A stretch of 64,000 nt of DNA from Betaproteobacteria bacterium (GTDB lineage: Bacteria > Pseudomonadota > Gammaproteobacteria > Burkholderiales > SG8-39): NCBI GenBank assembly GCA_016195915.1, contig JACPYS010000058.1, positions 62,001 through 126,000 of the forward strand, in the 5' to 3' direction. Shown here piece by piece: positions 6,260 through 41,717 of this stretch. Numbering within the stretch: position 1 is the first letter of the stretch; every line of letters begins with the position of its first letter. Both the position numbers and the translations under genes were made by a program. The notes below the pieces were generated by a model. It did no database searches. It was not told where the DNA came from and saw nothing but the letters and a program-made list of their open reading frames with translations.

Positions 6260-6780
6260 TAGTGCCACAACAACCGCGCGGCGGCAGCACGGTGCGGGCT
6301 CCATGCAACGGCGCGGCGCGCAAGGGATGGTGCCGAAGGCCGGGTGCGCAGCTTCCAAAGTTGCCGGACAGCCTCCGTCAGCGCGAGATCGGCGGCAGGG
6401 AACACGTCGGGCCGGCGCAGCGCGAACAGCAGGTAGCACTGCGCGGTCCAAGGCCCCACGCCGTGCAATTCGTCGAGGGCGGCGGCGGCGTCCGGCAACT
6501 CAGCGAGCGCATCGAGATCCAGCGCGCCTGATTCGAGTTCCCTCGCAAGCCGAGCGAGGTAGGCCGACTTCTGCCGCGTAACGCCGATCGCGCGCAACCC
6601 GGCTTCACCAAGCTTCGCGGTGTTCTCCGGTGTGACGCTGCCGGCGGCAAGCTCAATGCGCGCGTAAATCGCACGCGCCTGTGCGAGCGATACCTGCTGC
6701 TCCAGCATGAGCAGCGCGAGCGTCGCAAAGCCCGGTTCGCGCGGCCACAGCGGTGGCGGACCGTGACGCCCGAGGACCAA
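6229..6780 (-). CDS. DNA-3-methyladenine glycosylase, AlkA/HhH-GPD type (5' end uncertain)
   Basis: This base-excision repair enzyme belongs to the HhH-GPD superfamily. It shows the helix-hairpin-helix [14 protein letters not shown] followed by the catalytic-Asp region [12 protein letters not shown], and an N-terminal [25 protein letters not shown] block typical of AlkA. The only canonical start in frame is TTG at 6780. The reading frame continues upstream without ATG or GTG to a TGA at 6886-6888, and the intervening residues (for example [17 protein letters not shown]) look like the family's normal N-terminus. The true start may therefore lie near 6840 or have been lost. It is convergent with lgt. 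Confidence 0.8.
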
Positions 6781-6837
6781 AGCGAAGCGCGGCTCGGCGC
6801 GCGCCAGGATGCGGACCGAATCGAACAGGGAACGCTC

Positions 6838-6870
6838 GTCAAGCGGCCTGATTCCCGGACTCCTGGTTTT
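6838..6870. repeat. Imperfect direct repeat, left copy, beside the HEPN/MNT pair
   Basis: This 33-base segment matches 7941-7973 in the same orientation at 27 of 33 positions by eye, with the shared core TCCCGGAC and CCTGG ends. It begins where the glycosylase coding similarity runs out and ends 15 bases before the HEPN stop codon. Confidence 0.6.
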
Positions 6871-6885
6871 CAGGGTCGGTGCCGA

Positions 6886-7359
6886 TCAGCCCGGCGAGGT
6901 TTTGCGCGACACCGTTTTCGCAATGCGCGCGATCAATTTCCGCGCCGCGCTACTCGAGGGCGCCCCGCTCACGTCGTCAAGCGCACGCAGCAGATCGGCC
7001 AGCAGGGCCGACCCGGTCGCGGCGGCGGCGAGTGCGTCCTCGGTGCCGAACGGAATTGCCTCGTTGTAGTCGGCGTCGTGGCGTCCGGCCATCAGTGCCG
7101 AGAACTTCGCCGAGGTCTCGTGCGGCAGCGTGCCGGGACGCACGAAATGCAGCGCGAGCAGACCCGCCACCGCCTTGTGACTCGTCGCCTCGATGCCCTT
7201 CGCGTACAACAGCGACTCAGCAGCATGGAACACCGCGAAATACATGCTCGCTGCACATTCGCGCGGGTTGCGCGCCTGGAAGTTGGCGAGAAAGGACGTG
7301 AGCTTGGAGTCCAATTGCTCGAGCTTGAGCGCGACTCGCGCACGCGTCAGCTTGTCCAC
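6886..7359 (-). CDS. HEPN-domain protein (UPF0332-like), putative toxin of a HEPN/MNT pair
   Basis: This 157-residue all-helical protein starts at GTG 7359, overlapping the end of the nucleotidyltransferase gene by 13 bases, so the two are translationally coupled. The segments AASMYFAVFHAAESLLYAKG (38-56), SHKAVAGLLALHFV and RHDADYNE (93-100) match the HEPN/UPF0332 pattern. In characterised HepT toxins the RNase motif is R-x4-6-H. Here the corresponding Arg93 is followed by a DY pair, so nuclease activity is not assured. The partner upstream is an MNT-fold protein, the usual antitoxin arrangement. Toxicity is inferred, not shown. Confidence 0.78.
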   Translation of the reverse strand: MDKLTRARVALKLEQLDSKLTSFLANFQARNPRECAASMYFAVFHAAESLLYAKGIEATSHKAVAGLLALHFVRPGTLPHETSAKFSALMAGRHDADYNEAIPFGTEDALAAAATGSALLADLLRALDDVSGAPSSSAARKLIARIAKTVSRKTSPG

Positions 7360-29625: not shown

Positions 29626-29641
29626 TGTCAACCAGTTGACA
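29626..29641. promoter_or_regulatory. Palindromic operator candidate upstream of the Rieske gene
   Basis: The perfect inverted repeat TGTCAACCAGTTGACA has Crp-type geometry (TGTCA-N6-TGACA). It is centred about 70 bases before the Rieske ATG and about 60 bases before the start site expected from a TAGAAT at 29681-29686. The identical 16-mer occurs at 38564-38579. Confidence 0.6.
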
Positions 29642-29702: not shown

Positions 29703-30008
29703 ATGGCGAAAACGCTGCTCTGCAAAGTGTCCGAGGTTCGCGTCGGCGCGCTCAAACAGGTAGAAACCGGGGATGGACGCGAGGTGTGCGTCGTCCATGC
29801 CGAATCCGGATTCTTCGCGTGCAGGGCCTATTGCCCTCATCAGGGCACTGCATTGTGCGAAGGCTCGATCGACGGCACCACGCTCACGTGTCTGGAGCAC
29901 CTTTGGCAGTGGGATCTGCGCACCGGCGAAACCCTCGGCCTCGCGGCGGAGAGGCTCGAAGTCTATCCGGTCAAAGTCGAGAATGGATCGGTGTTCCTGA
30001 TACGCTGA
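29703..30008 (+). CDS. Rieske-type [2Fe-2S] ferredoxin
   Basis: This is a 101-residue soluble protein; an in-frame TTG lies nine bases upstream of the chosen ATG. Cluster ligands are Cys44 and His46 in CPHQGTALCEG, and Cys63 and His66 in CLEHLWQWD. There is no signal peptide or membrane helix, so it is a cytosolic carrier like those serving aromatic-ring and alkene oxygenases. No oxygenase is encoded nearby. It is convergent with the Crp/Fnr regulator gene and shares an upstream palindrome with the ferredoxin gene at 38176-38496. Confidence 0.92.
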   Translation: MAKTLLCKVSEVRVGALKQVETGDGREVCVVHAESGFFACRAYCPHQGTALCEGSIDGTTLTCLEHLWQWDLRTGETLGLAAERLEVYPVKVENGSVFLIR

Positions 30009-30029: not shown

Positions 30030-30728
30030 CTAACGCAGATAGGCGAGCGCCGCGAGCGCATCAAGGTCGGTGAGGATCAGGCTGCGCTTGCGCGTGACGA
30101 GCAGTCCGCGCTTCTGAAGCGAGCGCAGCGTCGTGTTCGCGAACTGGCGCGAAACGCCCGCGATTGCGGCGAGGTCTTCGTGGGTGAGCCGGATGTCGAC
30201 CAGCACGCCGAGATCGCTCGGCGCACCAAAACGCTCGGCGAGCGCGCAAAGAATGGCGCAGATGCGCTCAAACGCTGACTGGGTCTCGAGTATTACCGCG
30301 AGTTGCGCCACCCAGCGCAGGCGCACCGAGAGCGCGCGAATCATTGCCTGCGCGAGTTCCGGAAAGCGCCGCACCAGCGCGTTGAAGCGCTCGTGGGAGA
30401 GGGTGTAGATGATGCACTCGTCCATGCAGCGCAGGGTCATCATGCGGGTCATCGAAGAGCCGAGGTCGCCCGCGCCGAGAATGTCGCCGGGACACCAGAA
30501 CCCAGTGGTCCCCGTCTTGCCGTTGCGGCTCTGGTAGGACGACATTGCCTTGCCGCTCATGACGAACGCGACGTAGTCCGCAGGCTCACCCTGCGACCAG
30601 ATCGTCCCGCCCTTGCGCAATACGCGCCGCTCGCACTGCTCGAGCACCGCCTTGCGGTATTCGGCGGGGATTGCTCCGAGCACGTCGAGGTGCCCATCGG
30701 CGCGCTTGTCGTTGCCCGTATGCGGCAT
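30030..30728 (-). CDS. Crp/Fnr-family transcriptional regulator
   Basis: This is a 232-residue protein with an N-terminal cyclic-nucleotide-binding-type beta barrel (RKGGTIWSQGEPADYVAFVMSG) and a C-terminal winged helix (RLTHEDLAAIAGVSRQFANTTLRSLQKRG). It lacks the N-terminal cysteine cluster of Fnr, so it is not an oxygen-labile Fe-S sensor of that type. An exact TTGAT-N4-ATCAA box and a TATAAT lie directly upstream. It is a plausible regulator of the palindromes at 29626 and 38564, which have Crp-like spacing. Confidence 0.92.
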   Translation of the reverse strand: MPHTGNDKRADGHLDVLGAIPAEYRKAVLEQCERRVLRKGGTIWSQGEPADYVAFVMSGKAMSSYQSRNGKTGTTGFWCPGDILGAGDLGSSMTRMMTLRCMDECIIYTLSHERFNALVRRFPELAQAMIRALSVRLRWVAQLAVILETQSAFERICAILCALAERFGAPSDLGVLVDIRLTHEDLAAIAGVSRQFANTTLRSLQKRGLLVTRKRSLILTDLDALAALAYLR

Positions 30729-30734
30729 CGTTCG

Positions 30735-30773
30735 ATTATATTCGGAGCCCTTCGGCGGATTGATCTGGATCAA
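30735..30773 (-). promoter_or_regulatory. Fnr/Anr-type box and -10 element of the Crp/Fnr gene
   Basis: TTGATCTGGATCAA at 30760-30773 is an exact Fnr consensus palindrome. On the minus strand a perfect -10 TATAAT (complement of 30735-30740) follows, and transcription would begin at about the ATG at 30728, suggesting a leaderless message. The box overlaps the -35 position. It also lies about 78 bases upstream of the small plus-strand gene at 30845. Confidence 0.6.
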
Positions 30774-30844
30774 CGGATGCATGCCTGGCGCGTGGCGAAA
30801 TGCGAATATCCGCGTAGCCTCAACATCGCCAGGAGGAGGAGACC

Positions 30845-31070: not shown

Positions 31071-31634
31071 TTACCTGCAGTCGTTGCGGCAGGGAACGTT
31101 GACGATGTCAGGCCGCGGATCGACGGTGAAGCCCTTGCGATTCGGCATCTGCACCATCGGCAGCGACGACGCGTCCATCACCTCGTTCTCGCCGATGATG
31201 CCATTCACGAACAGCAGGTACGCCGTGATTCCATAGATCTCGTCCGGCGCAAGCGATTGCGGCGCGTTGAACGGCATGGCGCGATTGACGTAGTCATAGA
31301 CGGTAGGCGCGTAGGGCCAGTAGCTGCCGACGGTCATCACCGGGTTGTCGGTATTGAGTGTGCCCCGTCCGCCTACCAGCCGGTCGGCCGGCTTGCCCTC
31401 GCCTGTCATGCCGTGGCACGCGCCGCAGTGCAATTCATAGAGCGGTTTGCCCTTCGCCGCCGTGCTGCTCCCCTTTGGCAGACCCTTGCCGTCGGGGGAG
31501 ACATCGATGTCCCAGCCGGCGATCTCGCGCCCGGTCGCCGGCTTGCCGAATCCGAAGGTTTGCGCCGGGAGCGGGCTCGCCACCGCCGCAAGGCCAAGTG
31601 CGTACAGTACCGCGAATACCTCAGACCTGGACAT
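31071..31634 (-). CDS. SoxD-like periplasmic cytochrome c
   Basis: This 187-residue protein has a signal peptide (ALGLAAVASPLPAQ), one haem c site CGACH at 70-74 and a probable axial Met120 in NRAMPF. The blocks GGRGTLN, TVGSYWPYAPTVYDYVNRAMPF and MPNRKGF match the haem domain of SoxD, the electron-accepting subunit of sulfane/sulfite dehydrogenase. It is shorter than di-haem SoxD proteins. The start overlaps the SoxC-like gene by 14 bases. It would pass electrons to the respiratory chain. Confidence 0.88.
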   Translation of the reverse strand: MSRSEVFAVLYALGLAAVASPLPAQTFGFGKPATGREIAGWDIDVSPDGKGLPKGSSTAAKGKPLYELHCGACHGMTGEGKPADRLVGGRGTLNTDNPVMTVGSYWPYAPTVYDYVNRAMPFNAPQSLAPDEIYGITAYLLFVNGIIGENEVMDASSLPMVQMPNRKGFTVDPRPDIVNVPCRNDCR

Positions 31635-32868
31635 GGGTCACCTCCCCGCTCGCGGCGATGCCCCAGCTCTGGATCGCGTTGTAGTGGTAGCGCGAGTTGA
31701 AGCCGCGTAACGCAATCATCTGCGCGCGCGTCGGCTGGACGTAGCCCGTCTCGTCCATCGCACGGCTCTGCAACAGCGCCGCGCTGCCGTCCCAGTTCCA
31801 GGCGAAGCGAAAGCGCGTCAGCGCTCGATGCAGCACCGGTTCCTGCAGCGCGGCCTCACGCCAGTTGCGACCGCCATCGGTCGAAACGTCGACGCGGCGG
31901 ATGCGCCCCTGGCCGCTCCATGCAAGCCCGGAGATTTCGTGGAACCCTCTGTAGGTGACCCGGTGCCCGCCCGAGGGGCGCGTGATCACCGATTTCGCCT
32001 CCATCGCGAACGAGAACTGGCGCGCGCTGCCGTCGGGCATCAGGTCGGTGTAGCGTGAGGTTTCCTGCCGCGTATGGAACGGCGCATCGCCCACTTTCAA
32101 CCGGCGCAGCCACTTCACGCATACATTGCCCTCCCAACCCGGAACGATGAGCCGGAGCGGATATCCCTGCTCGGGCCTCAGCATCTCCCCGTTTTGCGCG
32201 TAGACCACCAGGATGTCCTCCAGACATTTCTCCACCGGGAGGCTGCGCGTATGGCCCGAGGCGTCGCCGCCCTCGGCGAGCACCCAGCGCGCGTCCGGCT
32301 GCAGGCCCGCTTCGTCGAGCAGCGTGGCGAGCGGCACGCCGGTCCATTCACAGCACGACAGCAGCCCGTGCGTCTGCTGTACGTCCTTCGACACCGGACT
32401 GCGCCAGTCGCGCGAGGTGTTGCCGGAGCACTCGAGAAACAATACCCGCGACACCGAAGGAAAGTGCAGCAGATCGTCCATCGTCCAGATCAGCGGCCTT
32501 CTCACCATTCCGTGGAGCATCAGCCGGTGCTGCGCCGGATCGATGTTCGGAACGCCGCCGTGCTGGCGCTCGAATACCAGTCCGCTCGGGGTGATCGTGC
32601 CGTGCAGATGCTGCAGCGGCGTGAGCGAAACACCCTCGGTCGGCTGCACCGAGGCGCGCTTGAATTTCACCACGCGCTTTTCAAACTCGGAAGGCAGTCC
32701 GTACGGATGCCAGTTGACCGGCTCGCCCTGGATTTTCATCCATTGCGGAATGTTCGATGGCAGATTACCCGCATCCTGGGCGCGCAGCGGCGCGGCGGTG
32801 AATGCTGCACTGGCCAAGGCCGCGCGCTCGAGAAAAGCGCGGCGCGAACGGTTCTGCGTGCTTGCCAT
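31621..32868 (-). CDS. SoxC-like molybdopterin sulfite/sulfane dehydrogenase
   Basis: This 415-residue protein begins MASTQNRSRRAFLERAALAS, a Tat signal (SRRAFLE at 8-14) expected of a cofactor-loaded periplasmic enzyme. The molybdenum ligand is Cys147 in FLECSGNTSRDW. SoxC/sulfite-oxidase motifs follow: VPGWEGNVCVKWLRRLKVGD, SRYTDLMPDGSARQFSF and GLAWSGQGRIRRVDVSTDGG. No SoxXYZAB genes are in the window, so it may oxidise free sulfite rather than carrier-bound sulfane sulfur. It is the seventh gene of a minus-strand run with transporters and an amidohydrolase. Confidence 0.9.
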   Translation of the reverse strand: MASTQNRSRRAFLERAALASAAFTAAPLRAQDAGNLPSNIPQWMKIQGEPVNWHPYGLPSEFEKRVVKFKRASVQPTEGVSLTPLQHLHGTITPSGLVFERQHGGVPNIDPAQHRLMLHGMVRRPLIWTMDDLLHFPSVSRVLFLECSGNTSRDWRSPVSKDVQQTHGLLSCCEWTGVPLATLLDEAGLQPDARWVLAEGGDASGHTRSLPVEKCLEDILVVYAQNGEMLRPEQGYPLRLIVPGWEGNVCVKWLRRLKVGDAPFHTRQETSRYTDLMPDGSARQFSFAMEAKSVITRPSGGHRVTYRGFHEISGLAWSGQGRIRRVDVSTDGGRNWREAALQEPVLHRALTRFRFAWNWDGSAALLQSRAMDETGYVQPTRAQMIALRGFNSRYHYNAIQSWGIAASGEVTHVQV

Positions 32869-32881
32869 TGGAGACCTCCTT

Positions 32882-33790
32882 TCAGAACAACACGTAGTGC
32901 ACGCCGATCGCGAGCAGCACGACGGCAACGAATGTCTTGAGCGCCTTTTCGTTCATGTAGCGGTTGAGCAACGGACCGAGAAACGAACCGGCGAGCACGC
33001 CGGGCACCTCGATCGCCACCAGCCGCCAGTCGATGTTTACCTGCAGCGCAATGTATGTAAGCACACTCACGGTAAGAGGAATCATCAATGCGACCAGGCT
33101 GGTACCGACCACCAGATACATCGGGAACAACAGCAGGCTCGCCATGAATGGCGTGACGAGAAACCCTCCGCCCACGCCGAGCATCGATCCGATGAACGAG
33201 ATCGCGAAACCACCGGCTGCGGCTGCCATCGGGTTGAATTCGAAGTGCTCGCCGCCGAAGCGCACGCGGCTCATCCACCGGCCGAAATGCGTGGTGCACG
33301 GGGCATCACCGTCCGACGGGGACGTAGCGCCGGCCGCACGGGCGCTTTTCGCGACACGATCGGATGCCTCCTGCGCCTTGCGCAGGCCGGCGTGCGTCAG
33401 CATGGCCTTTCCCCAGCCTTCGTACAACACGCGCGCCGCGACAAATGCCACCAGCAGCCCGAACAGGGAACGATACACCGCCATGTCCGACAAGTACGCC
33501 TTCGAGATCCACGAGCCCGCGATAGCGCCGATCGGCGCGCCCAGGCCAAAGCTGAGCGCGAGGCTCCACACCAGGCGCTTCTGGCGGTGGTAGAGCGGAA
33601 CCGAGACGATGCGGCTGGAGAATTCGAGTATCTGGTTCACGACCTTGATCATGTTCGCATCGCCGATCCCGAGAATCGAGATGTGACCGATGCCCGCGAG
33701 TATGCCGCCTCCGCCCGCGCCCATCGACATCATGAAACCGGCCAACACGCACCAGCTGAACGCCAGATAGGGATTGAACGTGAGATCCAT
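32882..33790 (-). CDS. TSUP-family permease (TauE/SafE type), copy 1
   Basis: This 302-residue polytopic protein uses the ATG at 33790 (MDLTFNPYLAFSW). The two family repeats are visible as GFMMSMGAGGGGILAG and GSMLGVGGGFLVTPFM, separated by a hydrophilic loop. TauE/SafE proteins export sulfite, sulfoacetate or other organosulfur anions. Its position 13 bases before the SoxC-like gene fits sulfite or sulfate handling. It starts five bases after the TctA stop. Confidence 0.9.
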   Translation of the reverse strand: MDLTFNPYLAFSWCVLAGFMMSMGAGGGGILAGIGHISILGIGDANMIKVVNQILEFSSRIVSVPLYHRQKRLVWSLALSFGLGAPIGAIAGSWISKAYLSDMAVYRSLFGLLVAFVAARVLYEGWGKAMLTHAGLRKAQEASDRVAKSARAAGATSPSDGDAPCTTHFGRWMSRVRFGGEHFEFNPMAAAAGGFAISFIGSMLGVGGGFLVTPFMASLLLFPMYLVVGTSLVALMIPLTVSVLTYIALQVNIDWRLVAIEVPGVLAGSFLGPLLNRYMNEKALKTFVAVVLLAIGVHYVLF

Positions 33791-33795
33791 CCGGG

Positions 33796-35295
33796 TCAGC
33801 CCCGCACCCGCCGCCACACGGCTCTAAGCTCCGGCGCGAGCGCCCAAAAGATGAACCCGAACGCCAACGCCATCAGTGCGCCACTCCTGGGCCGCGTGAA
33901 GAAGATGCTGAGATCGTCGTGGTAATTCGCCATCGACGTGAGAAAGTAGCTCTCGGCAAGCGGGCCGAGGATCACGCCCAGCACCAGGGGCGCAGTGGGG
34001 AAGCCGAAGCGCTTCATGTAGAAGCCGGCAATGCCGAAGCCGAGGCAGATGTACACGTCGGCGATGTTGTTGCGCACGCCGAATGCACCGACGACGCTGA
34101 ACACGACGATGAAGGCGCAGATGACCGTCGGATCGGTCTTCATCAGCATGCCGAAAGCGCGCGCCACCAACACCGAGATCGCGACCATGAACAGATTGGC
34201 GAGTGTGAAACTGGCGAAGATCGCGTACAGCATCTCGGGGTTCTTGCTGTACAACAGCGGCCCTGGTTGAACGCCGTGCAGCGTCAGCGCCGCGAGCATG
34301 ATCGCCGCGCCGGCACTACCCGGGATGCCGAGGGTAAGCAACGGAATCATCGCAGTTCCGGTGGTGGCGTTCTTGGAGGCCTCGGGCGCAGCGAGGCCGT
34401 CTTCGATCCCAGTGCCGAATTCGCTGCGGCGGCGATTCACCTGCCGCTCCACGCCGTAGGCAACGAGTGCACCCACCGCGGCTCCGGCGCCGGGAATGAT
34501 GCCGATCACGCTGCCCACGCCGGTGCCGCGCGAGATCGAGCCGCGCAGCTTCCATATGTCACGCAAGCCGAGGACTTTCATGGCTCCCTTGCGTTTGACG
34601 TTGAAATCGTAACCCTGGCGCGACGCGAGCGCGTCAATGACCTCGCCAATGGCGAACAGTCCGATCATCACCACGACGAAATCGATGCCGTTGTCGAGCA
34701 GGCCGATGCCGAACGTAAGCCGCGTCACCCCGTAAAGCGGGTCGGTGCCGATGGAGCCGATTGCCACGCCGAGGAACAACGACAGCAGCGATAGCAGCAG
34801 ATTGCCCTTGGAGATGGAAAGCACGCTGACCAACCCCATGAAGGTCGCGGCGAAGAACTCCGGTTGGTCGAACGACAGCGCGAGGCGCGCGAACGGCGGC
34901 GAGGCAAACGACAGCAGAAACGCGCTGAAAAGCCCGCCGATGGCACTGGCAGTGATGGCAATCGACAACGAGCGCTCGGGACCGTCACGCAGCGTGATCG
35001 GATACCCGTCCCAGCAGCTGGGCAGTGAGTCCGGATCACCCGGGATGTTGACCAATAGCGAGGAGATCGAGCCGCCGAATACGCCGCCGACGTAGATGCC
35101 GCCGAGAAACACCATCGCGACCAGCGGCGACATCAAATAGGTAAACGGCAGGCTGATGGCCATCGCGTTGACGAACGAAATTCCCGGCAGCGCGCCGGCG
35201 ATCACGCCGACCAGCACGCCGACGATCATCAGCGCCAGATGCAGCGGCTGGAGCGCGACGACCATCCCGTTGGCGAAGCCGGCGAGCGCTTCCAT
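33796..35295 (-). CDS. Tripartite tricarboxylate transporter large permease, TctA family
   Basis: This is a 499-residue protein with about ten to twelve membrane helices. It has the TctA signatures GVIAGALPGISFVNAMAISLPFTY, GGIYVGGVFGGSISSLLVNIPGDPDSLPSCWDGYP and the internal second copy GIIPGAGAAVGALVAYGVE. It forms the transport pore with TctB and is fed by the binding protein encoded at 35853-36818. Confidence 0.95.
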   Translation of the reverse strand: MEALAGFANGMVVALQPLHLALMIVGVLVGVIAGALPGISFVNAMAISLPFTYLMSPLVAMVFLGGIYVGGVFGGSISSLLVNIPGDPDSLPSCWDGYPITLRDGPERSLSIAITASAIGGLFSAFLLSFASPPFARLALSFDQPEFFAATFMGLVSVLSISKGNLLLSLLSLFLGVAIGSIGTDPLYGVTRLTFGIGLLDNGIDFVVVMIGLFAIGEVIDALASRQGYDFNVKRKGAMKVLGLRDIWKLRGSISRGTGVGSVIGIIPGAGAAVGALVAYGVERQVNRRRSEFGTGIEDGLAAPEASKNATTGTAMIPLLTLGIPGSAGAAIMLAALTLHGVQPGPLLYSKNPEMLYAIFASFTLANLFMVAISVLVARAFGMLMKTDPTVICAFIVVFSVVGAFGVRNNIADVYICLGFGIAGFYMKRFGFPTAPLVLGVILGPLAESYFLTSMANYHDDLSIFFTRPRSGALMALAFGFIFWALAPELRAVWRRVRG

Positions 35296-35313
35296 ACGCG
35301 GGTCGCGCCGCCC

Positions 35314-35856
35314 CTAATAGATTCCGAGTACCCGATACAGGGCCACGGTCGCCTGCTCGAATACGCCCTTGCCGCGGTCGAGCGGCATCGACGAGACCTT
35401 GACGAACAGGTAAAGGAGCGCGGTTGTTCCGATCGCGCTCGTGAGCACGATCGCGACCGGCCTGCGAACGCCGCCGAGCACCATCCAGGCGAGCAGGAAT
35501 AACAGCGTCGCCCAAGCGAATCCGATCGCGGAAATTGCGTAGCCATAGCAAATCAGCAGCGCGATGCCGGCGGCCAGTCGGGTCTCGTCATAGCCGTCGT
35601 TCTCGGCTTGCGGCTGCTCTGCCGCGCGCGCGCCGGCAATCACGCCAAACAGCATCCGCACAAACATTGCGCAGGCGCAGGCGGCTACGCAGTACAGGAT
35701 CACCTCCGGCCAGGTCGTCGGTCCGGCAATGCCCCGCTTGATCGCCTCTACGTCCACCCCTGGCGCGAGATGCCGATTCGCGACGAGCCACGCACCGCCC
35801 GCGACTGCGAGCGGGAAACCCAGCCGGGCGAGTTCCGTGACTGCCGGTCGTTTCAC
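35314..35856 (-). CDS. Tripartite tricarboxylate transporter small permease, TctB family
   Basis: This 180-residue membrane protein uses the GTG at 35856, which overlaps the TctC stop (GTGA). It has about four helices (GFPLAVAGGAWLVAN; EVILYCVAACACAMFVRMLFGV; AGIALLICYGYAISAIGFAWATLLFLLAWMVLGG; IVLTSAIGTTALLYLFV). It is poorly conserved, as is usual for TctB, and is identified largely by topology and position between TctC and TctA. Confidence 0.85.
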   Translation of the reverse strand: MKRPAVTELARLGFPLAVAGGAWLVANRHLAPGVDVEAIKRGIAGPTTWPEVILYCVAACACAMFVRMLFGVIAGARAAEQPQAENDGYDETRLAAGIALLICYGYAISAIGFAWATLLFLLAWMVLGGVRRPVAIVLTSAIGTTALLYLFVKVSSMPLDRGKGVFEQATVALYRVLGIY

Positions 35857-36818
35857 TTGATCATGCCGTAGTCTTTCATGAACTTCGAGACATCGTCGTA
35901 GTTCCGCTGCGCAAACTGGCGGCTCTCCTCGGGCGACTTGCGTTCGATGCAGGTATAGGTCTCGCCGCAGAACTTCCTCCAATCCGGAGAATCGAGCGCT
36001 TTCGCGACCGCTGCATTGAGTGCCGCGAGCGTGTCCGCCGGCACCTTCGCCGCGGCGACGATCGCGCGCCAGTTGGGGAGATCGACGTCGTGGCCGAATT
36101 CACCGGATGCCGGCGTGTCCGGAAACGCCGGGTGGCGCCGCGCGCCGAACACGACGATCGGGCGATACTGCTTTGAATCGATAAACTGCACCACGTCGCC
36201 AGGCTCCTCGAACAGGATCTCGCTATGGCCGCCAAGCGGCGACATGTAGCGCTCGCCAGGTTTGGCGAACGGCACGTTCACCATCGGAAAGCCCTTGGTT
36301 GCCAGAAATTTTACGGCGATGTCGTCCAGCGTCCCGTATCCCGCGGTCGCCACGCGCAGCTTGCCGGGATTGGCCTTGGCCGCGTCGAGCATTCGTCTGT
36401 AGTCCAGGATCCTGCTGTCATTGGGCACAAACAGCATCGACGGCGAGGACTGCACCACCGCGATGAACGCGAAGTCGCGGATCTGCAGCTTGCCAAGGCC
36501 GCCCGCCCACGCCGAGACCGAAAGACCCGTGAGCGTGCCGAGCGTGTAGCCATCGGGCGTGCTGCCAAGCACCTTGGACAGGCCCGCATTACCCGAGGCT
36601 CCCGCGATGTTCGACACCGGTACCGGCACGCCGAGAACCGGCTCGAGCAGCTTGGACATGATGCGCCCGAGTTGATCGGCCCCGCCGCCCGGTCCGAAAT
36701 TGACGATCATGTCGACCGGGCGCGACGGATACTTCCTTTCCTGCGCCTGCGCGCTGGCGCAGGCCGCGGCCAGCAGGGCGATCGTGCACGCAATCCGGAC
36801 GCGGATCTGCCTGTCCAT
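35853..36818 (-). CDS. Tripartite tricarboxylate transporter substrate-binding protein, TctC/Bug family
   Basis: This 321-residue periplasmic protein has a signal peptide (ALLAAACASAQAQ) and the Bug start YPSRPVDMIVNFGPGGGADQLGRIM. Other family features are VPVSNIAGASGNAGLSKV, TPDGYTLGTLT and DDIAVKFL. A purine-rich GGAGGAGGAGG ribosome-binding site precedes the ATG at 36818. Bug proteins bind carboxylates, amino acids or sulfonates; the ligand here is unknown. Together with the SoxCD-like genes, an organosulfur carboxylate would be consistent. Confidence 0.93.
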   Translation of the reverse strand: MDRQIRVRIACTIALLAAACASAQAQERKYPSRPVDMIVNFGPGGGADQLGRIMSKLLEPVLGVPVPVSNIAGASGNAGLSKVLGSTPDGYTLGTLTGLSVSAWAGGLGKLQIRDFAFIAVVQSSPSMLFVPNDSRILDYRRMLDAAKANPGKLRVATAGYGTLDDIAVKFLATKGFPMVNVPFAKPGERYMSPLGGHSEILFEEPGDVVQFIDSKQYRPIVVFGARRHPAFPDTPASGEFGHDVDLPNWRAIVAAAKVPADTLAALNAAVAKALDSPDWRKFCGETYTCIERKSPEESRQFAQRNYDDVSKFMKDYGMIK

Positions 36819-36946
36819 AGCCTCCTCCTCCTTCGCTGTTCCGAGCAACGCGATCAGCGCCGCGCAAGTTCGGTCCCTCGGAAGCCGCCTGTTTACATTA
36901 GTCTGCGCCTCTTCGTGGCCGCACGCCAGCCGCCGCCCCGCGCACG

Positions 36947-38137
36947 CTACAAACCCAGTGCATCGATCGCCGCGCGCGAGAAGAAGTTGATGCGTGACTG
37001 CGCGTCCATGTCCGGATAGTTGTTCATGTAGCGAACCACACCGGACACGCCGCTCGAGTCCCAGTGCGGATAGTCGCTGGTACAGGCCATGTTCTTTCCC
37101 TTGAACCAGTCCATGGTTTCGCGCAGCAGCGCCTCCTCCGGCTCGAACGAACAGATCACGCACTGGCGCTTGAAGTACTCCGACGGCGCCATGCCAAGGC
37201 CGGTCATTTCCTTGGGCCGCGCGCCGTAATGGTTGTCGAGGCGGAACAACATGTAGGGAACCCACGTCGCGCCGGCCTCGCAAAACAGCACCTGCAGCCT
37301 CGGGTGGCGCTCCAGGACGCCGTAGCCGATGATCCCGCACATCGCGCTCGCCATCTCGAGCGGATGCGACACAACGTGTGCCAGCCAGTAACGGTCGAAC
37401 TTGTAATCGGTGCTGTAGCTCGCGTTGTAGGTGCCCGTCGCCTCGTGGAAGACCAGCGCCATGCCGAGCTCGGTCATGGTCTTCCACACCGGGTCCCAGT
37501 CCTCGCCCCACCAGCGGACGTCCTGCATCACGTTCGGCCGCATCCAGACCGCCGTGGCGCCGAGCTTGCGGCATCGCTTGATCTCCTGCACCGCCCACTC
37601 GGGATTGAGCGGAATCGTCACGCACCAAAGATGTCGCTTGCCGGTCGCATATACCTTCGCGGTCCAATCATTCAAAGCCCGCATCACCGCATACTGGAAA
37701 TCCCAGTTCATGATGTCTGGCGTGAACAAACCAAGCGTCGGAATCCACACCGCCGCGTCAATCCCGCTCAGGTCCATGTCGATATCGCGATTCGCGAACG
37801 CATGCTTGTGCGCGCGCTCGTAGGACAGGCCTTCGCCGCGCGGGCGCTGATCGCCGCAGCCTTCGGTACGGCCTGGCCCCCAGCCGGCGGGCTTCTGGTA
37901 GAGGCGGCCCTCGACCATCAGGCGCGGCGCGCCGGTGTTGTCAGTAGCCGGCTTCGGCGCCATATGCTGCCACTCCTTGTCCAGATACATCGTAAACGCC
38001 TCGGGCGGTTCGATGATGTGCCGGTCGCAATCGACGACAAAGTACTCCTGGCCAAGCTTCTTATTGCCGGAGCGGTAGCTGTCCTCTGCGGCCTTGTAGT
38101 GGTCGCGGGGTTTGTCCTTGCGTGCGGTTTGAGCCAT
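36947..38137 (-). CDS. Amidohydrolase-2 family metal-dependent hydrolase/decarboxylase
   Basis: This 396-residue protein starts at the ATG at 38137. The TIM-barrel amidohydrolase-2 features are YFVVDCDRHIIEPPEAF near the N-terminus (usually DxHxxxP, here DRH), DMDLSGIDAAVWIPT, GATAVWMRPNV, AHVVSHPLEMA and the C-terminal ACTSDYPHWD (catalytic Asp). Related enzymes decarboxylate or hydrolyse aromatic and enol acids such as 2-amino-3-carboxymuconate semialdehyde. It lies between the ferredoxin and tctC genes, making it the best candidate for the first catabolic step on the imported compound. Confidence 0.88.
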   Translation of the reverse strand: MAQTARKDKPRDHYKAAEDSYRSGNKKLGQEYFVVDCDRHIIEPPEAFTMYLDKEWQHMAPKPATDNTGAPRLMVEGRLYQKPAGWGPGRTEGCGDQRPRGEGLSYERAHKHAFANRDIDMDLSGIDAAVWIPTLGLFTPDIMNWDFQYAVMRALNDWTAKVYATGKRHLWCVTIPLNPEWAVQEIKRCRKLGATAVWMRPNVMQDVRWWGEDWDPVWKTMTELGMALVFHEATGTYNASYSTDYKFDRYWLAHVVSHPLEMASAMCGIIGYGVLERHPRLQVLFCEAGATWVPYMLFRLDNHYGARPKEMTGLGMAPSEYFKRQCVICSFEPEEALLRETMDWFKGKNMACTSDYPHWDSSGVSGVVRYMNNYPDMDAQSRINFFSRAAIDALGL

Positions 38138-38175
38138 GTTGCGATCTCCTCTTTCCAGTTCCGCGCGGGGCGGGG

Positions 38176-38496
38176 TCATCCCATGTTATCCATGAGCAGG
38201 CGCTCGACGATCTTGCCACCGACGACATGAGTTCGAAGGATCTCATTCGCGTCGTCTACAGTTGGCACGTGATACCAGGCGGCTTCCGGATACACCACCA
38301 CCGTCGGGCCGTATTCGCAGTGATCCAGGCATCCTGCGCGATTGATCCGCACATCGCCCTCGAGTCCGGCTTTGCCCGCGCCTTCCTTCAGGACCTTGAA
38401 AATGCCTTCGGCGCCGCGGTGCTTGCAGCTGCCGCGCGGGTCGGCCGGATCCCGCTCGTTGAGACATACGAAGACGTGCCGCTTGTACCCTGTCAT
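38176..38496 (-). CDS. Thioredoxin-fold [2Fe-2S] ferredoxin
   Basis: This 106-residue soluble protein has cluster ligands Cys11 (HVFVCLNER), Cys24 (GSCKHRG), Cys56 and Cys60 (GCLDHCEYGP), the spacing of Aquifex/Azotobacter-type thioredoxin-like ferredoxins. It ends with PTVVVYPEAAWYHVPTVDDANEIL, usual for the family. It heads the minus-strand run down to 31071 and starts 38 bases before the amidohydrolase gene. The shared palindrome lies 68 bases upstream of its start. Confidence 0.92.
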   Translation of the reverse strand: MTGYKRHVFVCLNERDPADPRGSCKHRGAEGIFKVLKEGAGKAGLEGDVRINRAGCLDHCEYGPTVVVYPEAAWYHVPTVDDANEILRTHVVGGKIVERLLMDNMG

Positions 38497-38563
38497 CAGG
38501 ATGGTCCTTCAAAGTGGGTCGCATCGAAACGGCGAACAGTAGCGCACCGCGCGGCGGGCGCGA

Positions 38564-38579
38564 TGTCAACCAGTTGACA
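38564..38579. promoter_or_regulatory. Palindromic operator candidate upstream of the ferredoxin-led operon
   Basis: TGTCAACCAGTTGACA is identical to the site at 29626-29641; the next six bases on the plus strand (AATCCG) are also shared. It is centred about 75 bases before the ferredoxin start. Each arm contains a TTGACA that could serve as a -35 element. Confidence 0.6.
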
Positions 38580-38651: not shown

Positions 38652-39446
38652 TTACCACAGGGTCCAAAGCATGCGTCCAGCAAGAGCGTACAAGAGCAGG
38701 GCGAACGCGACACGCAGTCTCGCGACGGGCAACCGGTGCGCAAGACGCGCACCCCACGGCGCGCAGAGCATGCTCGGAACGACCACCAGCAGCAGCGCCG
38801 GGAGATGGACGAAGCCCACGCTTCCTGCCGGCAGGCCCTGCGCACCCAGACCATTCAACACATAGCCGATCGAGCCTGCCACTGCGATCGGAAATCCGAT
38901 CGCAGCGGCTGTTCCAATCGCGCGCCGCAGGGGCACGTTGCACTTGGTCATGAATGGAATTGAGAGAAATGCGCCCCCGGCGGCGAACAAGCTTGAAACC
39001 CCGCCGATCACCGCCCCCGCGGTGAACAGTCCCGCGCCTCCCGGCAACTCGCGCGATGACCGGGGCCTCGCGTCGAAGAACATCTGCGTCGCGGCGTAAA
39101 TTACGAACGCGGTGAAGATCAGCGCCAGCGGCCGGGTCGGAATGAAGCCGGCAATTTGCGATGCGAGAAACGAGCCCGTGAGGATTCCCGGCACGATCGC
39201 CCGCGCGATGGCCCAATCGACGACGCCCTGCTGGTGGTGTGCCCGAACGCTGGACACCGACGTGAACACCACCGTCGCCAGCGACGTCGCGATCGACAGG
39301 TGCATCAGGTGCTCGGCCGGAAAACCCTTGGCGGTGAAAATCAGCACCAGGATTGGTACCAGCGTCAGTCCGCCACCGATCCCGAGCAAACCTGCGAGGA
39401 ATCCGACCAGCGCGCCGGACGAAAGGTAGACCCACCACCAGTCCAC
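38652..39446 (-). CDS. TSUP-family permease (TauE/SafE type), copy 2
   Basis: This 264-residue membrane protein has a GTG start at 39446, one base after the HAD gene stop. The repeats are LSSGALVGFLAGLLGIGGGLTLVPILVLIF and GGVSSLFAAGGAFLSIPFM. This is a different subgroup from the permease at 32882. Its C-terminus matches the orphan tail at 29516-29596. Members export small anions such as sulfite or sulfonates. It is likely co-transcribed with the phosphatase and glpD genes. Confidence 0.9.
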   Translation of the reverse strand: MDWWWVYLSSGALVGFLAGLLGIGGGLTLVPILVLIFTAKGFPAEHLMHLSIATSLATVVFTSVSSVRAHHQQGVVDWAIARAIVPGILTGSFLASQIAGFIPTRPLALIFTAFVIYAATQMFFDARPRSSRELPGGAGLFTAGAVIGGVSSLFAAGGAFLSIPFMTKCNVPLRRAIGTAAAIGFPIAVAGSIGYVLNGLGAQGLPAGSVGFVHLPALLLVVVPSMLCAPWGARLAHRLPVARLRVAFALLLYALAGRMLWTLW

Positions 39447-39447
39447 T

Positions 39448-40233
39448 TCAGTCCTTTAGAAGGTGCTCGACCAGTTCGGCGAAACCCGCACCGGCCGCCT
39501 CGCGCGTCACGTAGATGGGAGCAACATCCAGGTGCCCTGCAAAGCGCGCGATGTTCGCCACCCCGACCGAGATCGGGAAATAGCCGAACATCGGCGCGTC
39601 GTTGGGCGAGTCGCCAGCGAATACGAACTGATCCCTCACCGTATCCAGATCGAAGCCGAAGCGCTCGCGCGCGAGGAGCTTCGTCATGCCAAGCTTGTCG
39701 TAGTCGCCAAACCAGCCGTTGACGTGGATCGAACTGATCTTTGCGGTCATGCCTTCGGCGCGCATGAGCTGCGCTATTCTCGCCGCAGCCTCGAGCGAAA
39801 GCGCCGGAACATCCTCGCAGAAATCGATCGCGAGATCGGATTCGCGATAGTTCTGGTCGGAAGCCAACGCGCATCCTGGGACCGCCGCAACAATCCCGCG
39901 GGCGATCGCGTCGAAACGCGCCCGGCCCGCGGCCCGCGTTTGCGCATCGGCCGCGTACCGTCTGCCGAGCTTCCTGGATTGACGGTCGTGCCAGAAATAG
40001 AAAGCACCGTTTTCGCCCACGACGGCGTCGACCGGCCACATGCGCGCGATGTGATCGCACCATCCTGCCGGTCGACCCGTGATGGGCACCACCAGCCTTC
40101 CGGAAGCCTTTAAACGCTCCATCGCGCAATATGCCTGCGCTGTAAGCGTGCCGTCGGTGGTAAGAGTATCGTCAATGTCGAAAAATACGCCGCGCGCCCC
40201 TCCGGCACCGTACAGTTCGCCGAGCGGGCGCAT
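39448..40233 (-). CDS. HAD-IIB family sugar-phosphatase-like hydrolase
   Basis: This 261-residue protein starts at the ATG at 40233, overlapping the glpD stop (TGATG). Motif I is FFDIDDTLTT (Asp19, Asp21), motif II is VVPITGRP, and motif IV is FAGDSPNDAPMF. The capped IIB architecture resembles sucrose-phosphate and mannosyl-3-phosphoglycerate phosphatases. Its coupling to glpD hints at a phosphorylated C3 or glyceryl substrate, but this is weak. Confidence 0.88.
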   Translation of the reverse strand: MRPLGELYGAGGARGVFFDIDDTLTTDGTLTAQAYCAMERLKASGRLVVPITGRPAGWCDHIARMWPVDAVVGENGAFYFWHDRQSRKLGRRYAADAQTRAAGRARFDAIARGIVAAVPGCALASDQNYRESDLAIDFCEDVPALSLEAAARIAQLMRAEGMTAKISSIHVNGWFGDYDKLGMTKLLARERFGFDLDTVRDQFVFAGDSPNDAPMFGYFPISVGVANIARFAGHLDVAPIYVTREAAGAGFAELVEHLLKD

Positions 40234-41717
40234 CAGTGCGTCGCGATCCAGCCAGCGAGCCCGGTGCGCTCGTCCGGCGTCATGTGCAAACCGCACTTGG
40301 TCCGACGCCAGAGGATGTCGTCGAGGTCGCGCGCCCACTCGTGCTCGCACAGGTAGCGCACCTCTCGCTCGTAGAGCCCGGCGCCGAAATGTGCGCCAAG
40401 GTCTTCGGCGGTCTTGGCGTCTCCCGCGATCTGCGTCGCGAGCAGGCCGTGGCGGCGGTGCACACCGTGCAGGAATTCGCTTGGCAGCCGCGGGTAGCGG
40501 CGCGCGAGATCGAGGAACACCTCGCGCCGCGCCGCGGGATGAAAATCCCCACCAGGCAGCGGTGCGGTGCCGGTCCAGGCCGGCTTGAGATCCGGAAAAT
40601 ACGGCGCGAGCCGATCCATCACATGCTCTGCAAGCCGCCGATAGGTGGTGATCTTGCCGCCGAACACCGAAAGCACCGGGGCGCGACCCTCCACGTCGTC
40701 CACGCGCAAGGTGTAATCGCGCGTCACTTTGGATGGATCGCTGGTGCCATCGTCATACAGCGGACGAACGCCCGAGTAGGTCCATACCACGTCGGCCGGT
40801 GCGACCGGATTCGCAAGGTAACGGTTCGCGGCGCGACACAGGTAGGCGATTTCCTCGGCCGATGCGTGTGGATCGCCGGGGTCGCCGTCGAGTAGAATAT
40901 CGGTGGTGCCTATGAGCGTGTAATTCCGCTCATAGGGAATCATGAACACGACCCGGCGATCGTCGTTCTGCAATATGAATGCGTGCTCGCCCTCGTAGCG
41001 CTTGCCCATGACGATATGGCTGCCCTTGATGAGCCGAACGGCGTCGCGCGAAGGCTGCCCGAGATTCCCGTTGAGCACTTCCTTGACCCAGGGGCCGGCG
41101 GCATTCACCACCGCACGTGCGCGAACTTCACTCGTTTTGCCATCGCCCACGAGTTCAATCCGCCATTCGCCTTGTTCCCGCTGCGCACGTGCGCAGGCGG
41201 TCTGCGTCAGGATTTGCGCGCCCTGCTCGCGCGCGCTCATCGCGTTCGTCACCACCAGACGAGCGTCGTCGACGCGACAGTCCGAGTACATGAAACCATG
41301 CCTCAGCCCGGGCTTGAGTCCGGAGTCGTACGGGGGAACCGAGAGATCGATCCCGTGCGAGCCCTCGAGCGTCGAACGGCGCGAGAGGTGGTCATACAGG
41401 AACAGCCCCATCCGGATCATCCAGCGCGGCAGAAGGTCGGGCACGTGCGGCATGATGAATCGCGCCGGCCATACCAGATGCGGAGCGATGTTGAGCACGA
41501 TCTCGCGCTCGGCAAGCGCTTCAGCGACAAGGCGGAACTCATAGAGCTCCAGATAGCGCAATCCGCCGTGGATCAGCTTGGATGACCAGGATGACGTCTG
41601 CGAAGCGAGATCGCCCTTCTCCGCGAGCAGCACCTTCAGCCCGCGCCCTGCCGCATCGCGCGCAATCCCTACGCCATTGATGCCGCCGCCAATGACGAGG
41701 AGGTCGTAGGTATGCAT
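40233..41717 (-). CDS. glpD: Aerobic glycerol-3-phosphate dehydrogenase
   Basis: This 494-residue flavoprotein oxidises sn-glycerol-3-phosphate to dihydroxyacetone phosphate and reduces ubiquinone at the inner membrane. It has the FAD-binding GGGINGVGIARDAAGRG, SSWSSKLIHGGLRYLE, TIGTTD-like YTLIGTTDILLDGDP and SVFGGKITTYRRLAE. The chosen start at 41717 gives MHTYDLLVIGGG. It lies only 28 bases behind atpC on the same strand. No glpFK or glpR is nearby. Confidence 0.95.
   Translation of the reverse strand: MHTYDLLVIGGGINGVGIARDAAGRGLKVLLAEKGDLASQTSSWSSKLIHGGLRYLELYEFRLVAEALAEREIVLNIAPHLVWPARFIMPHVPDLLPRWMIRMGLFLYDHLSRRSTLEGSHGIDLSVPPYDSGLKPGLRHGFMYSDCRVDDARLVVTNAMSAREQGAQILTQTACARAQREQGEWRIELVGDGKTSEVRARAVVNAAGPWVKEVLNGNLGQPSRDAVRLIKGSHIVMGKRYEGEHAFILQNDDRRVVFMIPYERNYTLIGTTDILLDGDPGDPHASAEEIAYLCRAANRYLANPVAPADVVWTYSGVRPLYDDGTSDPSKVTRDYTLRVDDVEGRAPVLSVFGGKITTYRRLAEHVMDRLAPYFPDLKPAWTGTAPLPGGDFHPAARREVFLDLARRYPRLPSEFLHGVHRRHGLLATQIAGDAKTAEDLGAHFGAGLYEREVRYLCEHEWARDLDDILWRRTKCGLHMTPDERTGLAGWIATH

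Follow-up and report, generated by a model that had tools for sequence, protein, structure and literature searches.

A candidate regulon for organosulfur-acid catabolism centred on a predicted amidohydrolase-related dinuclear oxygenase

Only a handful of amidohydrolase-related dinuclear oxygenases (AROs) are known, and for four candidates the natural substrates could not be inferred from genomic data (PMC10811679). The dinuclear site of AibH2 is built from D25, H27, H211, E265, D337 and H340 (PMC7782822); SfbO, which binds sulfate, accepts sulfonated buffers as substrates (PMC10811679). In Filomicrobium strain Y a methanesulfonate monooxygenase shares one 20.3-kb segment with a TauE/SafE gene and a SoxC-cytochrome pair, the cytochrome partner being about 190 aa long (ORF 6389-6967; PMC4433239). 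Carriers of the TctABC type are known for organosulfur acids: SlcHFG for sulfolactate and the TctCBA system of Advenella for 3,3′-dithiodipropionate (PMC5812351).

Within the window (the whole 64,000-nucleotide stretch of DNA that was analysed) the minus strand carries eight genes in head-to-tail order between 38496 and 31071, all with open reading frames (Table 1). A first-pass annotation had read this run as a complete pathway of organosulfur uptake and oxidation. It was right that the run is real, and right about the gaps (mostly under 40 bases or overlaps, the largest 128 bases, before tctC): successive genes are separated by 38, 128, −4, 18, 5, 13 and −14 bases, a spacing that supports one transcription unit. 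That the pathway is complete within this span did not stand: genes for a small Rieske ferredoxin and for a regulator of the Crp/Fnr type lie outside it, and the functional unit probably reaches below 31071 to take in both. No ferredoxin reductase gene is present in the operon. No Rfam family reached its gathering score in the 64 kb, and a scan for promoter-like sites (0, with 1.8 expected) and terminator-like sites (10, with 7.2 expected) was not informative.

Table 1. Features of the candidate unit, in window coordinates.
Feature	Position	Strand	Basis
Thioredoxin-like [2Fe-2S] ferredoxin, 106 aa	38176..38496	-	PF01257 E=0.004, NF041612/NF041613, all sub-threshold
PF04909 protein, predicted ARO, 396 aa	36947..38137	-	PF04909; PDB relatives; ligand positions; orthologues 77-87% identical
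TctC, tripartite tricarboxylate transporter solute-binding protein, 321 aa	35853..36818	-	PF03401
TctB, small membrane subunit, 180 aa	35314..35856	-	PF07331
TctA, large membrane subunit, 499 aa	33796..35295	-	PF01970, 440 bits
TauE/SafE-family permease, 302 aa; possible exporter of sulfite or another anion	32882..33790	-	PF01925
Stand-alone SoxC-type molybdopterin enzyme, 415 aa; probable periplasmic sulfite dehydrogenase	31621..32868	-	TIGR04555, 641 bits
Cytochrome c with one haem, 187 aa; probably accepts electrons from the SoxC-type enzyme	31071..31634	-	PF00034; CxxCH
Crp/Fnr-family regulator, probably controlling the unit	30030..30782	-	PF13545, PF00027
Small Rieske ferredoxin, 101 aa; predicted ARO electron donor	29703..30008	+	motif C-x-H ... 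C-x2-H
Palindrome TGTCAACCAGTTGACA, probable operator, upstream of the ferredoxin-ARO operon	38564..38579	.	
Identical palindrome, probable operator, upstream of the Rieske ferredoxin gene	29626..29641	.	

The PF04909 protein (51 bits, gathering threshold 26.4) had been taken for an amidohydrolase that cleaves or decarboxylates its substrate. Its start is most likely at 38137, a choice preferred because this position aligns with the start of the orthologue at locus L001. The best relatives in the PDB are PtmU3 (77.8 bits), 8SM9 (73.5), 8SM7 (55.7), AibH2 (55) and SfbO (53.3); the ARO structures 8SM6-8SM9, PtmU3 and AibH2 are found among the relatives by profile search too, and the uncharacterised 4dzi (54 bits) falls among the ARO matches. 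By alignment the predicted dinuclear metal ligands are D38, H40, H231, E287, D355 and H358, so that all six ligand positions of AibH2 are filled, and the second-sphere D360 takes the place of AibH2 Asp342. The protein is thus probably an ARO, an identity we consider well supported; its cofactor would be Fe/Fe or Mn/Fe and its reaction an O2-dependent hydroxylation. The sulfate-contacting residues R232 and R235 of SfbO are replaced by V255 and H258, leaving W341 (W359 here) as the sole residue kept of the three on which the comparison rests, since N67 and Y280 have no reliable place in the alignment. Three distant homologues, from two genomes, also possess all six ligands, and a TctC-like gene lies one or two positions away from each; no Rieske gene is present in the ∼4 kb around each. 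Because these homologues combine ligands and TctC without a Rieske gene nearby, the two features alone prove little. An AlphaFold2 model built with four close orthologues (mean pLDDT 37, pTM 0.45) was too poor to use.

Orthologues of the oxygenase, 77-87% identical, are rare. Exact peptide patterns, a method that finds close relatives only, returned four orthologous loci in 84,980 genomes. Among 101 genomes (the window's own and its relatives) an orthologue occurs in the window genome and in G033, with two further genomes matching at only 33-36% identity; the counts are 2 of 399 genomes for the order, 1 of 369 for the class (the window genome itself) and 1 of 250 for the cyanobacterial order, where the broken copy of G450 is not among the matches (an effect of threshold or sample). 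Seven plasmid records matched, all below 60% identity.

At all five orthologous loci, the window included, a small Rieske ferredoxin gene lies within the cluster. It directly follows the oxygenase gene in the two cyanobacterial loci (L002, with a 4-bp overlap, and L004) and is one gene away in two relatives (L001 and L003); in the window it is seven genes away from the ARO gene, at a distance of 6.9 kb. Under the neighbour rule of PMC10811679, which asks for a Rieske ferredoxin gene no more than three coding regions away, L001, L002, L003 and L004 fall inside (four of five) and the window locus outside; here the Rieske gene appears tied to the operon only by a palindrome. The operon's own [2Fe-2S] ferredoxin has cysteines at positions 11, 24, 56 and 60 and scores below the cut-offs (Pfam 17.4 against 24.8; both NCBIfam matches likewise). 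Its orthologue immediately precedes the oxygenase gene in L001 (69%) and L003 (71%); none was found in L002 or L004.

The palindrome is perfect, 16 bp long and of the form TGTCA-N6-TGACA; the upper limit assigned to the run by the first-pass annotation (38579) is its final base. Two perfect copies exist in the 6.84-Mb genome, one before the operon and one before the Rieske gene; both are in the window, against none in 100 shuffles of it. At up to three mismatches the excess is not significant (3 matches in the window, a number reached by 17 of 100 shuffles). Both sites of G033 fall in its orthologous cluster. The single site of G449 is on a different contig, flanked by the orthologues of tctC and tauE, so that transporter genes bear the palindrome in both relatives; the palindrome was not found in the cyanobacterial loci (about 21 kb each). 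Orthologues of the Crp-type regulator (66-68%) are present in L001 and L003. Probably this regulator controls both promoters through the shared palindrome, which it would itself bind.

The window genome, G033 and G449 have in common a unit of Rieske ferredoxin, Crp-type regulator, [2Fe-2S] ferredoxin, oxygenase, TctABC and TauE. G033 keeps the last four of these components together, with three other genes inserted, and G449 keeps the first six operon genes split over two contigs. Together with the palindrome beside the TctABC-TauE orthologues of G449, this bears out the claim that ferredoxin, central enzyme, carrier and permease belong together. The expected conservation of the whole gene set in relatives was found for these six genes and not for the SoxC pair, which G033 is without. 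In L001 an iron-sulfur molybdoenzyme (PsrA/PhsA/Fdh-like) sits between the oxygenase gene and tctC; it may be a sulfite oxidiser like SoeABC.

TctC (PF03401), TctB (PF07331) and TctA (PF01970) all exceed their cut-offs and make up a complete tripartite tricarboxylate transporter. Identities of the orthologues in L001 and L116 are 70% and 64% for TctC, 50% and 46% for TctB, 83% and 71% for TctA, and 62% and 67% for TauE. The TauE protein scores 111.9 bits against PF01925 (cut-off 32.6); TauE/SafE is a broad family, and the permease is a possible exporter of sulfite or another anion. A TctC query matched 13 of 199 genomes at E ≤ 1e-60; besides the window gene and that of G033 (71%) identities were 37-45%. 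Of these other eleven genomes, the four whose loci were compared (L106-L109) all combine TctC with TctA, TctB or both, and none of the four gave an oxygenase match (tblastn, 1e-8).

The six-gene set does not extend to the cyanobacteria: in their two loci (about 21 kb each) TctABC, TauE, Crp and [2Fe-2S] ferredoxin gave no match, and the oxygenase gene of L004 is broken. Two genes stand beside the L002 oxygenase: one encodes a protein of the SsuA family (222.8 bits, cut-off 163.5), the other an oxidoreductase resembling DszC/SfnB that falls under both cut-offs; their homologues in L004 are 75-76% identical. The SsuA-like gene occurs in three cyanobacterial genomes, in one of them without an ARO beside it.

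The last two genes of the operon had been labelled SoxCD. The SoxC-type enzyme scores 641.3 bits against TIGR04555 (cut-off 420) and 411 bits to 2xts, and has an SRRAFL motif close to its start; its gene begins 13 bp past tauE and shares 14 bp with the cytochrome gene. The label does not fit: this is a stand-alone SoxC whose partner, a cytochrome of 187 aa, has a single CxxCH, at residue 70, whereas the SoxD partners in sox operons have 347-450 aa and two CxxCH in eight of eight pairs. In a tree the SoxC rows from sox operons, eight in all, cluster together (97/89) with the window gene outside their group. The soxYZAXB genes lie on a different contig (C18, L071) from the window (C7) and have no soxCD beside them; elsewhere in the genome, C43 encodes one further TIGR04555 protein that passes the cut-off and C28 a partial match of 37%. 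Identity as SorA or SorT finds no backing at the NCBIfam cut-offs (151.9 of 600 and 123 of 570 bits). Because the pair is stand-alone, has a mono-haem partner and is absent from G033 (no SoxC relative at E ≤ 1e-10), we regard it as an accessory, variable part of the predicted unit. An active-site tyrosine was considered as a marker of sulfite versus sulfane activity and rejected: Tyr223 matches the Tyr of sulfite oxidase where 2xts has Phe, yet over 36 SoxC rows the residue does not discriminate (sox-operon SoxC Trp 5, Tyr 3; stand-alone Tyr 13, Leu 13, Trp 2).

These data can be assembled into an ARO-based regulon for organosulfur-acid catabolism with TctABC, TauE and SoxC-type sulfite oxidation, a reading to which we give nearly as much credence as doubt. 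TctC would bind an organic acid, most likely one that bears oxidised sulfur such as a sulfonate group; TctAB would carry it into the cytoplasm. There the ARO would hydroxylate it with electrons from the Rieske ferredoxin and perhaps also from the thioredoxin-like [2Fe-2S] ferredoxin; hydroxylation at the sulfur-bearing carbon would set sulfite free. TauE may export the sulfite, which the Tat-exported SoxC-type molybdenum enzyme would oxidise to sulfate in the periplasm, handing electrons to the mono-haem cytochrome c. The Crp/Fnr-type regulator would govern both transcripts. An organosulfur role is plausible given its context: the shared set includes TauE, the window has SoxC and its cytochrome as well, and L002 and L004 have the SsuA-family and DszC/SfnB-like proteins. 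Against it, none of the shared genes is specific to sulfur as judged by sequence. We infer the sulfonate substrate and no more, because the SfbO arginines are not conserved and the cyanobacterial loci are without TctABC and TauE.

A sulfur-free substrate, a carboxylate or an amine as for AibH2, would leave the protein an ARO monooxygenase, make TauE the carrier of an organic anion and turn the SoxC pair into a passenger. We hold this possible though unlikely; the variable SoxC pair, the altered SfbO sulfate residues and the breadth of the TauE/SafE family all favour it. AROs that have been characterised act, moreover, on aminoisobutyrate and diterpenoids (PMC7782822). The tight junctions of soxC with tauE and the cytochrome gene speak against a passenger, as do the organosulfur-type genes flanking the oxygenase in two cyanobacteria and the segment in which TauE and a SoxC-cytochrome pair accompany a sulfonate monooxygenase (PMC4433239).

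The original proposal has a sulfonated or thio-carboxylate cleaved by an amidohydrolase or decarboxylase of the classical mononuclear type, with SoxCD oxidising the sulfur thus set free; we now judge it improbable. Decarboxylases of PF04909 (LigW, ACMSD and 2,3-dihydroxybenzoate decarboxylase) do match, at 42.8-45.4 bits, and the window's Rieske gene is distant; AROs score higher, however, the dinuclear-site His358 and Asp360 are present with the full ligand set, the Rieske gene found in all five clusters has no role in hydrolysis, and the SoxC partner is no di-haem SoxD. It is more doubtful still, and in our view very unlikely, that the SoxC pair is the sulfane dehydrogenase of a thiosulfate-oxidising system, serving the soxYZAXB genes of contig C18 while the rest of the operon is unrelated. 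The lack of soxCD beside those genes and the scarcity of other TIGR04555 proteins in the genome would suit such a role; the tree, the two-CxxCH SoxD partners of sox-operon SoxC and the placement of the window gene in one operon with carrier and oxygenase count against it.

If the ARO-based organosulfur reading is true, a recently recognised enzyme family has a new job, and the operon gives an ARO a physiological setting, with a carrier and a regulator, a palindrome of sharply defined form, a Rieske partner and an outlet for sulfite. More tentatively, and with doubt outweighing confidence, the enzyme may represent a class of desulfonating oxygenase that is structurally new, a dinuclear-metal monooxygenase with the amidohydrolase fold and its own Rieske ferredoxin that would cleave the C-S bond of a carboxylated sulfonate and be wired to TctABC, TauE and a SoxC-type enzyme through one palindromic operator. 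ARO and Rieske ferredoxin also stand beside sulfonate-uptake-type and DszC-like genes in two cyanobacteria (one ARO copy broken). Among the open-licence papers listed in literature searches, none describes an ARO that degrades sulfonates alongside TauE or SoxC, an absence of little weight. Genes of PF04909 labelled amidohydrolases may hide further oxygenases, and the label SoxC covers two kinds of protein, one in sox operons with di-haem SoxD and one stand-alone with a mono-haem cytochrome.

Among known systems, the SoxCD of thiosulfate oxidation (2xts) has the SoxC subunit family TIGR04555 in common with the window; the window's partner is mono-haem, however, with no soxYZAXB alongside, and its SoxC lies outside the sox-operon tree group. 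SlcHFG and Advenella TctCBA, which serve organosulfur acids (PMC5812351), are of the same carrier type as the window's TctABC. With the AibH1H2-G-F 2-aminoisobutyrate monooxygenase of Rhodococcus, PtmU3 and SfbO the central protein shares PF04909; likeness to AibH1H2-G-F and the ARO family extends to the ligands (Asp-x-His, His, Glu and Asp-x2-His), to clustering with a small Rieske ferredoxin gene and to nearby permease genes. In contrast to AibH1H2-G-F, the window has one PF04909 gene rather than two, and TctABC and TauE where that system has an amino-acid permease; the thioredoxin-like ferredoxin is additional, the operon lacks a reductase gene and the Rieske gene is 6.9 kb away. From SfbO it differs in the sulfate-binding arginines. 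The msm cluster of Filomicrobium strain Y uses a Rieske terminal oxygenase and an ABC importer, but it matches the window in overall composition: an importer, a monooxygenase, a TauE-type exporter and a SoxC with its cytochrome (PMC4433239).

Eight minus-strand genes run from 38496 to 31071 on contig C7 of a 6.84-Mb genome, separated by gaps of 38, 128, −4, 18, 5, 13 and −14 bases; their coordinates and spacing confirm the run as the first-pass annotation described it. Pfam and NCBIfam identify PF04909, TctC, TctB, TctA, TauE, SoxC and cytochrome c proteins, and the ferredoxin call is based on matches under the curated cut-offs plus four cysteines. The outline of the pathway read into these genes, organosulfur uptake followed by oxidation, is partly right; its key enzyme (a hydrolase), its Sox pair (SoxCD) and its unit borders are probably wrong.

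Coordinates of features in the window and in the other loci named (L001, L003 and L004, orthologous loci in two relatives and a cyanobacterium; L015, L016 and L071, further SoxC or sox loci)
Feature	Location	Orientation	Remark
Palindrome, Rieske gene	window 29626-29641		upstream of gene
Small Rieske ferredoxin gene	window 29703-30008	convergent with regulator gene	C-x-H and C-x2-H motifs
Crp/Fnr-type regulator gene	window 30030-30782	minus	downstream of run; Pfam
PF04909 gene (predicted oxygenase)	window 36947-38137	minus	396 aa
Ferredoxin gene	window 38176-38496	minus	
Palindrome, operon	window 38564-38579		upstream of operon
Second TauE/SafE-family gene	window 38652-39446	minus	directly upstream
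HAD-type phosphatase gene	window 39448-40350		recognised by eye
Three inserted genes	L001 3377-7098		between oxygenase and tctC
ComA-family gene	L003 5808-6638	opposite to oxygenase	PF02679, 181 bits
Broken oxygenase gene	L004 9990-10770		
Possible second sulfonate cluster	L015 1-11300		contig C43
Apparent Rieske fusion gene	L015 3517-4248		
Apparent Rieske fusion gene	L016 4292-5020		
soxYZAXB set	L071 3179-7161		contig C18

The PF04909 protein, annotated as an amidohydrolase, is probably an oxygenase. Its top PDB relatives are PtmU3 (77.8 bits), 8SM9 (73.5), 8SM7 (55.7) and AibH2 (55), followed by the uncharacterised 4dzi (54), SfbO (53.3) and 8SM8 (47.9); decarboxylases rank lower (42.8-45.4 bits). 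The class of amidohydrolase-related dinuclear oxygenases (AROs) includes PtmU3, AibH2, SfbO and the 8SM7-8SM9 proteins as members or candidates (PMC10811679, PMC10401708 and PMC7782822, in excerpt). The metal ligands reported for AibH2 (Asp25, His27, His211, Glu265, Asp337 and His340; PMC7782822, in excerpt) align in printed alignments with D38, H40, H231, E287, D355 and H358, so all six dinuclear positions are filled, and D360 occupies the place of AibH2 Asp342. The ligands are kept in L001 and in the cyanobacterial locus L002, and in L003 up to the contig end at residue 307. As a control, three distant PF04909 homologues from two genomes (33-36% identical) also carry these ligands. In each case a TctC-like gene is either adjacent to the PF04909 gene or one gene removed from it, and the roughly 4 kb of sequence covered contains no Rieske motif. 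A PF04909 gene close to TctC is therefore unremarkable, and the ligands do not settle the question by themselves.

SfbO and the ARO candidates were found through the gene of a small Rieske protein in their vicinity, the neighbour rule being within three coding regions (PMC10811679, in excerpt). At all five orthologous loci the cluster includes a Rieske homologue with intact motif: directly after the oxygenase gene in both cyanobacteria (with a 4-bp overlap in L002), separated from it by one gene in L001 and L003, and past the regulator at a distance of 6.9 kb in the window. The rule thus holds at four loci. The window is the exception; there a shared palindrome ties the Rieske gene to the operon.

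This perfect palindrome, TGTCAAC-CA-GTTGACA, precedes both the operon and the Rieske gene; these are its only perfect matches in the window, and 100 shuffles gave none. The operon's copy sits between the operon and the second TauE/SafE-family gene, which the phosphatase gene adjoins. Five whole genomes were scanned at up to one mismatch. The window's genome holds the two perfect copies and a single-mismatch copy inside an open reading frame elsewhere. Both sites of the relative G033 fall in the orthologous cluster, a one-mismatch copy between the Rieske and ferredoxin genes and a perfect copy before tctC. The only site in the relative G449 is perfect; it lies between tctC and tauE orthologues, and the oxygenase gene is on a different contig. 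The two cyanobacterial genomes have none at this threshold; a control pattern gave 0, 1, 0, 0 and 0 sites. A 3-mismatch copy between the Rieske and ferredoxin genes of L003 is weak. The geometry TGTCA-N6-TGACA is that of Crp/Fnr-family sites, and the Crp-type protein, kept in L001 and L003 at 66-68% identity, may bind it. With this regulator and the palindrome-bearing Rieske gene found beyond 31071, the unit borders first drawn are probably too narrow. Three genomes (the window's, G033 and G449) have a common set of Rieske, Crp, ferredoxin, oxygenase, TctABC and TauE genes; it forms one cluster in the first two and is split over two contigs in the third. In G449 crp also adjoins the 3′ remnant of a tauE gene. 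The cyanobacterial loci have only oxygenase and Rieske genes in common with this set.

Close orthologues are rare in the genomes searched: exact patterns found four loci in 84,980 genomes, and an order-level sample of 399 genomes yielded only the window's genome and G033. Among the nearest named records for the PF04909 protein are two betaproteobacterial MAGs, together with two cyanobacteria; the 77-78% identity of the L002 protein suggests horizontal transfer.

The SoxC-like protein scores 641 bits against TIGR04555 (cut-off 420), a model that covers nearly all of the fetched SoxC proteins of both sox operons and stand-alone loci and matched 66 of 300 genomes in an order-level survey. Our tree has 36 rows: the window gene, L015, L016 and 33 survey places picked by hand in favour of two-copy genomes and low scores (two under the cut-off; some stretches short). 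Eight rows, those whose fetched stretch includes SoxY or SoxB at over 40% identity, make up a single group (97/89), each with a 347-450-aa SoxD bearing two CxxCH motifs. In the remaining 27 fetched rows the partner is 174-286 aa long and has only one such motif, as in the window pair. Stand-alone SoxC thus outnumbers sox-operon SoxC 27 to 8 among these non-randomly chosen loci. Label and tree match imperfectly, since two one-CxxCH rows from a single genome (L080 and L082) fall beside the sox-operon group. The window SoxC lies within no starred set, its nearest row being 61% identical, and G033 lacks any SoxC relative at E ≤ 1e-10. Judged by its one-CxxCH partner and its absence from G033, the pair is probably an accessory rather than SoxCD proper. 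The soxYZAXB set of the window's genome, on contig C18, has no soxCD beside it; its SoxY ends in GGCGG, and its other genes, recognised by eye, found each other's homologues in the sox operons of other genomes when used as queries.

In the pathway we propose, TctABC would import the substrate and the ARO would hydroxylate it with electrons from the Rieske protein; were the hydroxylated carbon to carry a sulfonate, sulfite would be lost, to be exported by TauE and oxidised by SoxC and the cytochrome. A periplasmic place for the latter two would fit the SRRAFL motif near the SoxC start and the signal-like start of the cytochrome. Sulfolactate and dithiodipropionate are substrates of carriers of the TctABC type (PMC5812351, in excerpt), and TauE sulfite export is discussed in PMC5373536 (in excerpt).

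That the substrate is a sulfonate is a prediction we favour only slightly. For a sulfur role speak TauE in the common set and SoxC with its cytochrome in the operon. Two genes diverge from the L002 oxygenase gene: one for a protein of the SsuA family (222.8 bits against a cut-off of 163.5), the other for a DszC/SfnB-like oxidoreductase that scores below both cut-offs (321.7 against 850 bits and 229 against 430.9). Their homologues in L004 are 76% and 75% identical. A ComA-family (phosphosulfolactate synthase) gene below its NCBIfam cut-off, about 2 kb from the L003 oxygenase and near crp and the tauE remnant, also speaks for it. Against it, the SoxC pair is not conserved, SfbO R232 and R235 are replaced by V255 and H258, and of the three cyanobacterial genomes (among 250 searched) with the SsuA-like gene, one lacks an adjacent oxygenase gene. 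A further point against is that the L004 oxygenase gene is itself broken in its record, having lost an internal segment and its continuous reading frame (a pseudogene or assembly error). Where the window has only the 128-bp gap, L001, apparently the G033 contig with the orthologous cluster, carries genes for a membrane protein, a 4Fe-4S protein and a PsrA/PhsA-like molybdoenzyme, the last possibly an alternative sulfite-handling enzyme.

Elsewhere in the window's genome, L015 is possibly a second sulfonate cluster: it encodes two Rieske oxygenase alpha subunits accompanied by beta subunits, a ferredoxin reductase, an importer of the SsuABC type and a stand-alone SoxC paired with a mono-haem cytochrome. 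L016, in G449, is similar in gene set and order; neither has the palindrome at up to two mismatches. In both, an apparent N-terminal Rieske ferredoxin is fused to a cyclic-nucleotide-binding-like domain (recognised by eye only), whereas the Rieske and Crp genes of the window are separate neighbours.

Every part of the system is a member of a known family; the gene combination, like the chemistry it probably carries out, appears to be new among the open-licence papers that the searches listed. A comparable association occurs in Filomicrobium strain Y, where the 20.3-kb segment with the methanesulfonate monooxygenase genes also encodes a TauE/SafE protein and a SoxC accompanied by a ∼190-aa cytochrome (PMC4433239, in excerpt).
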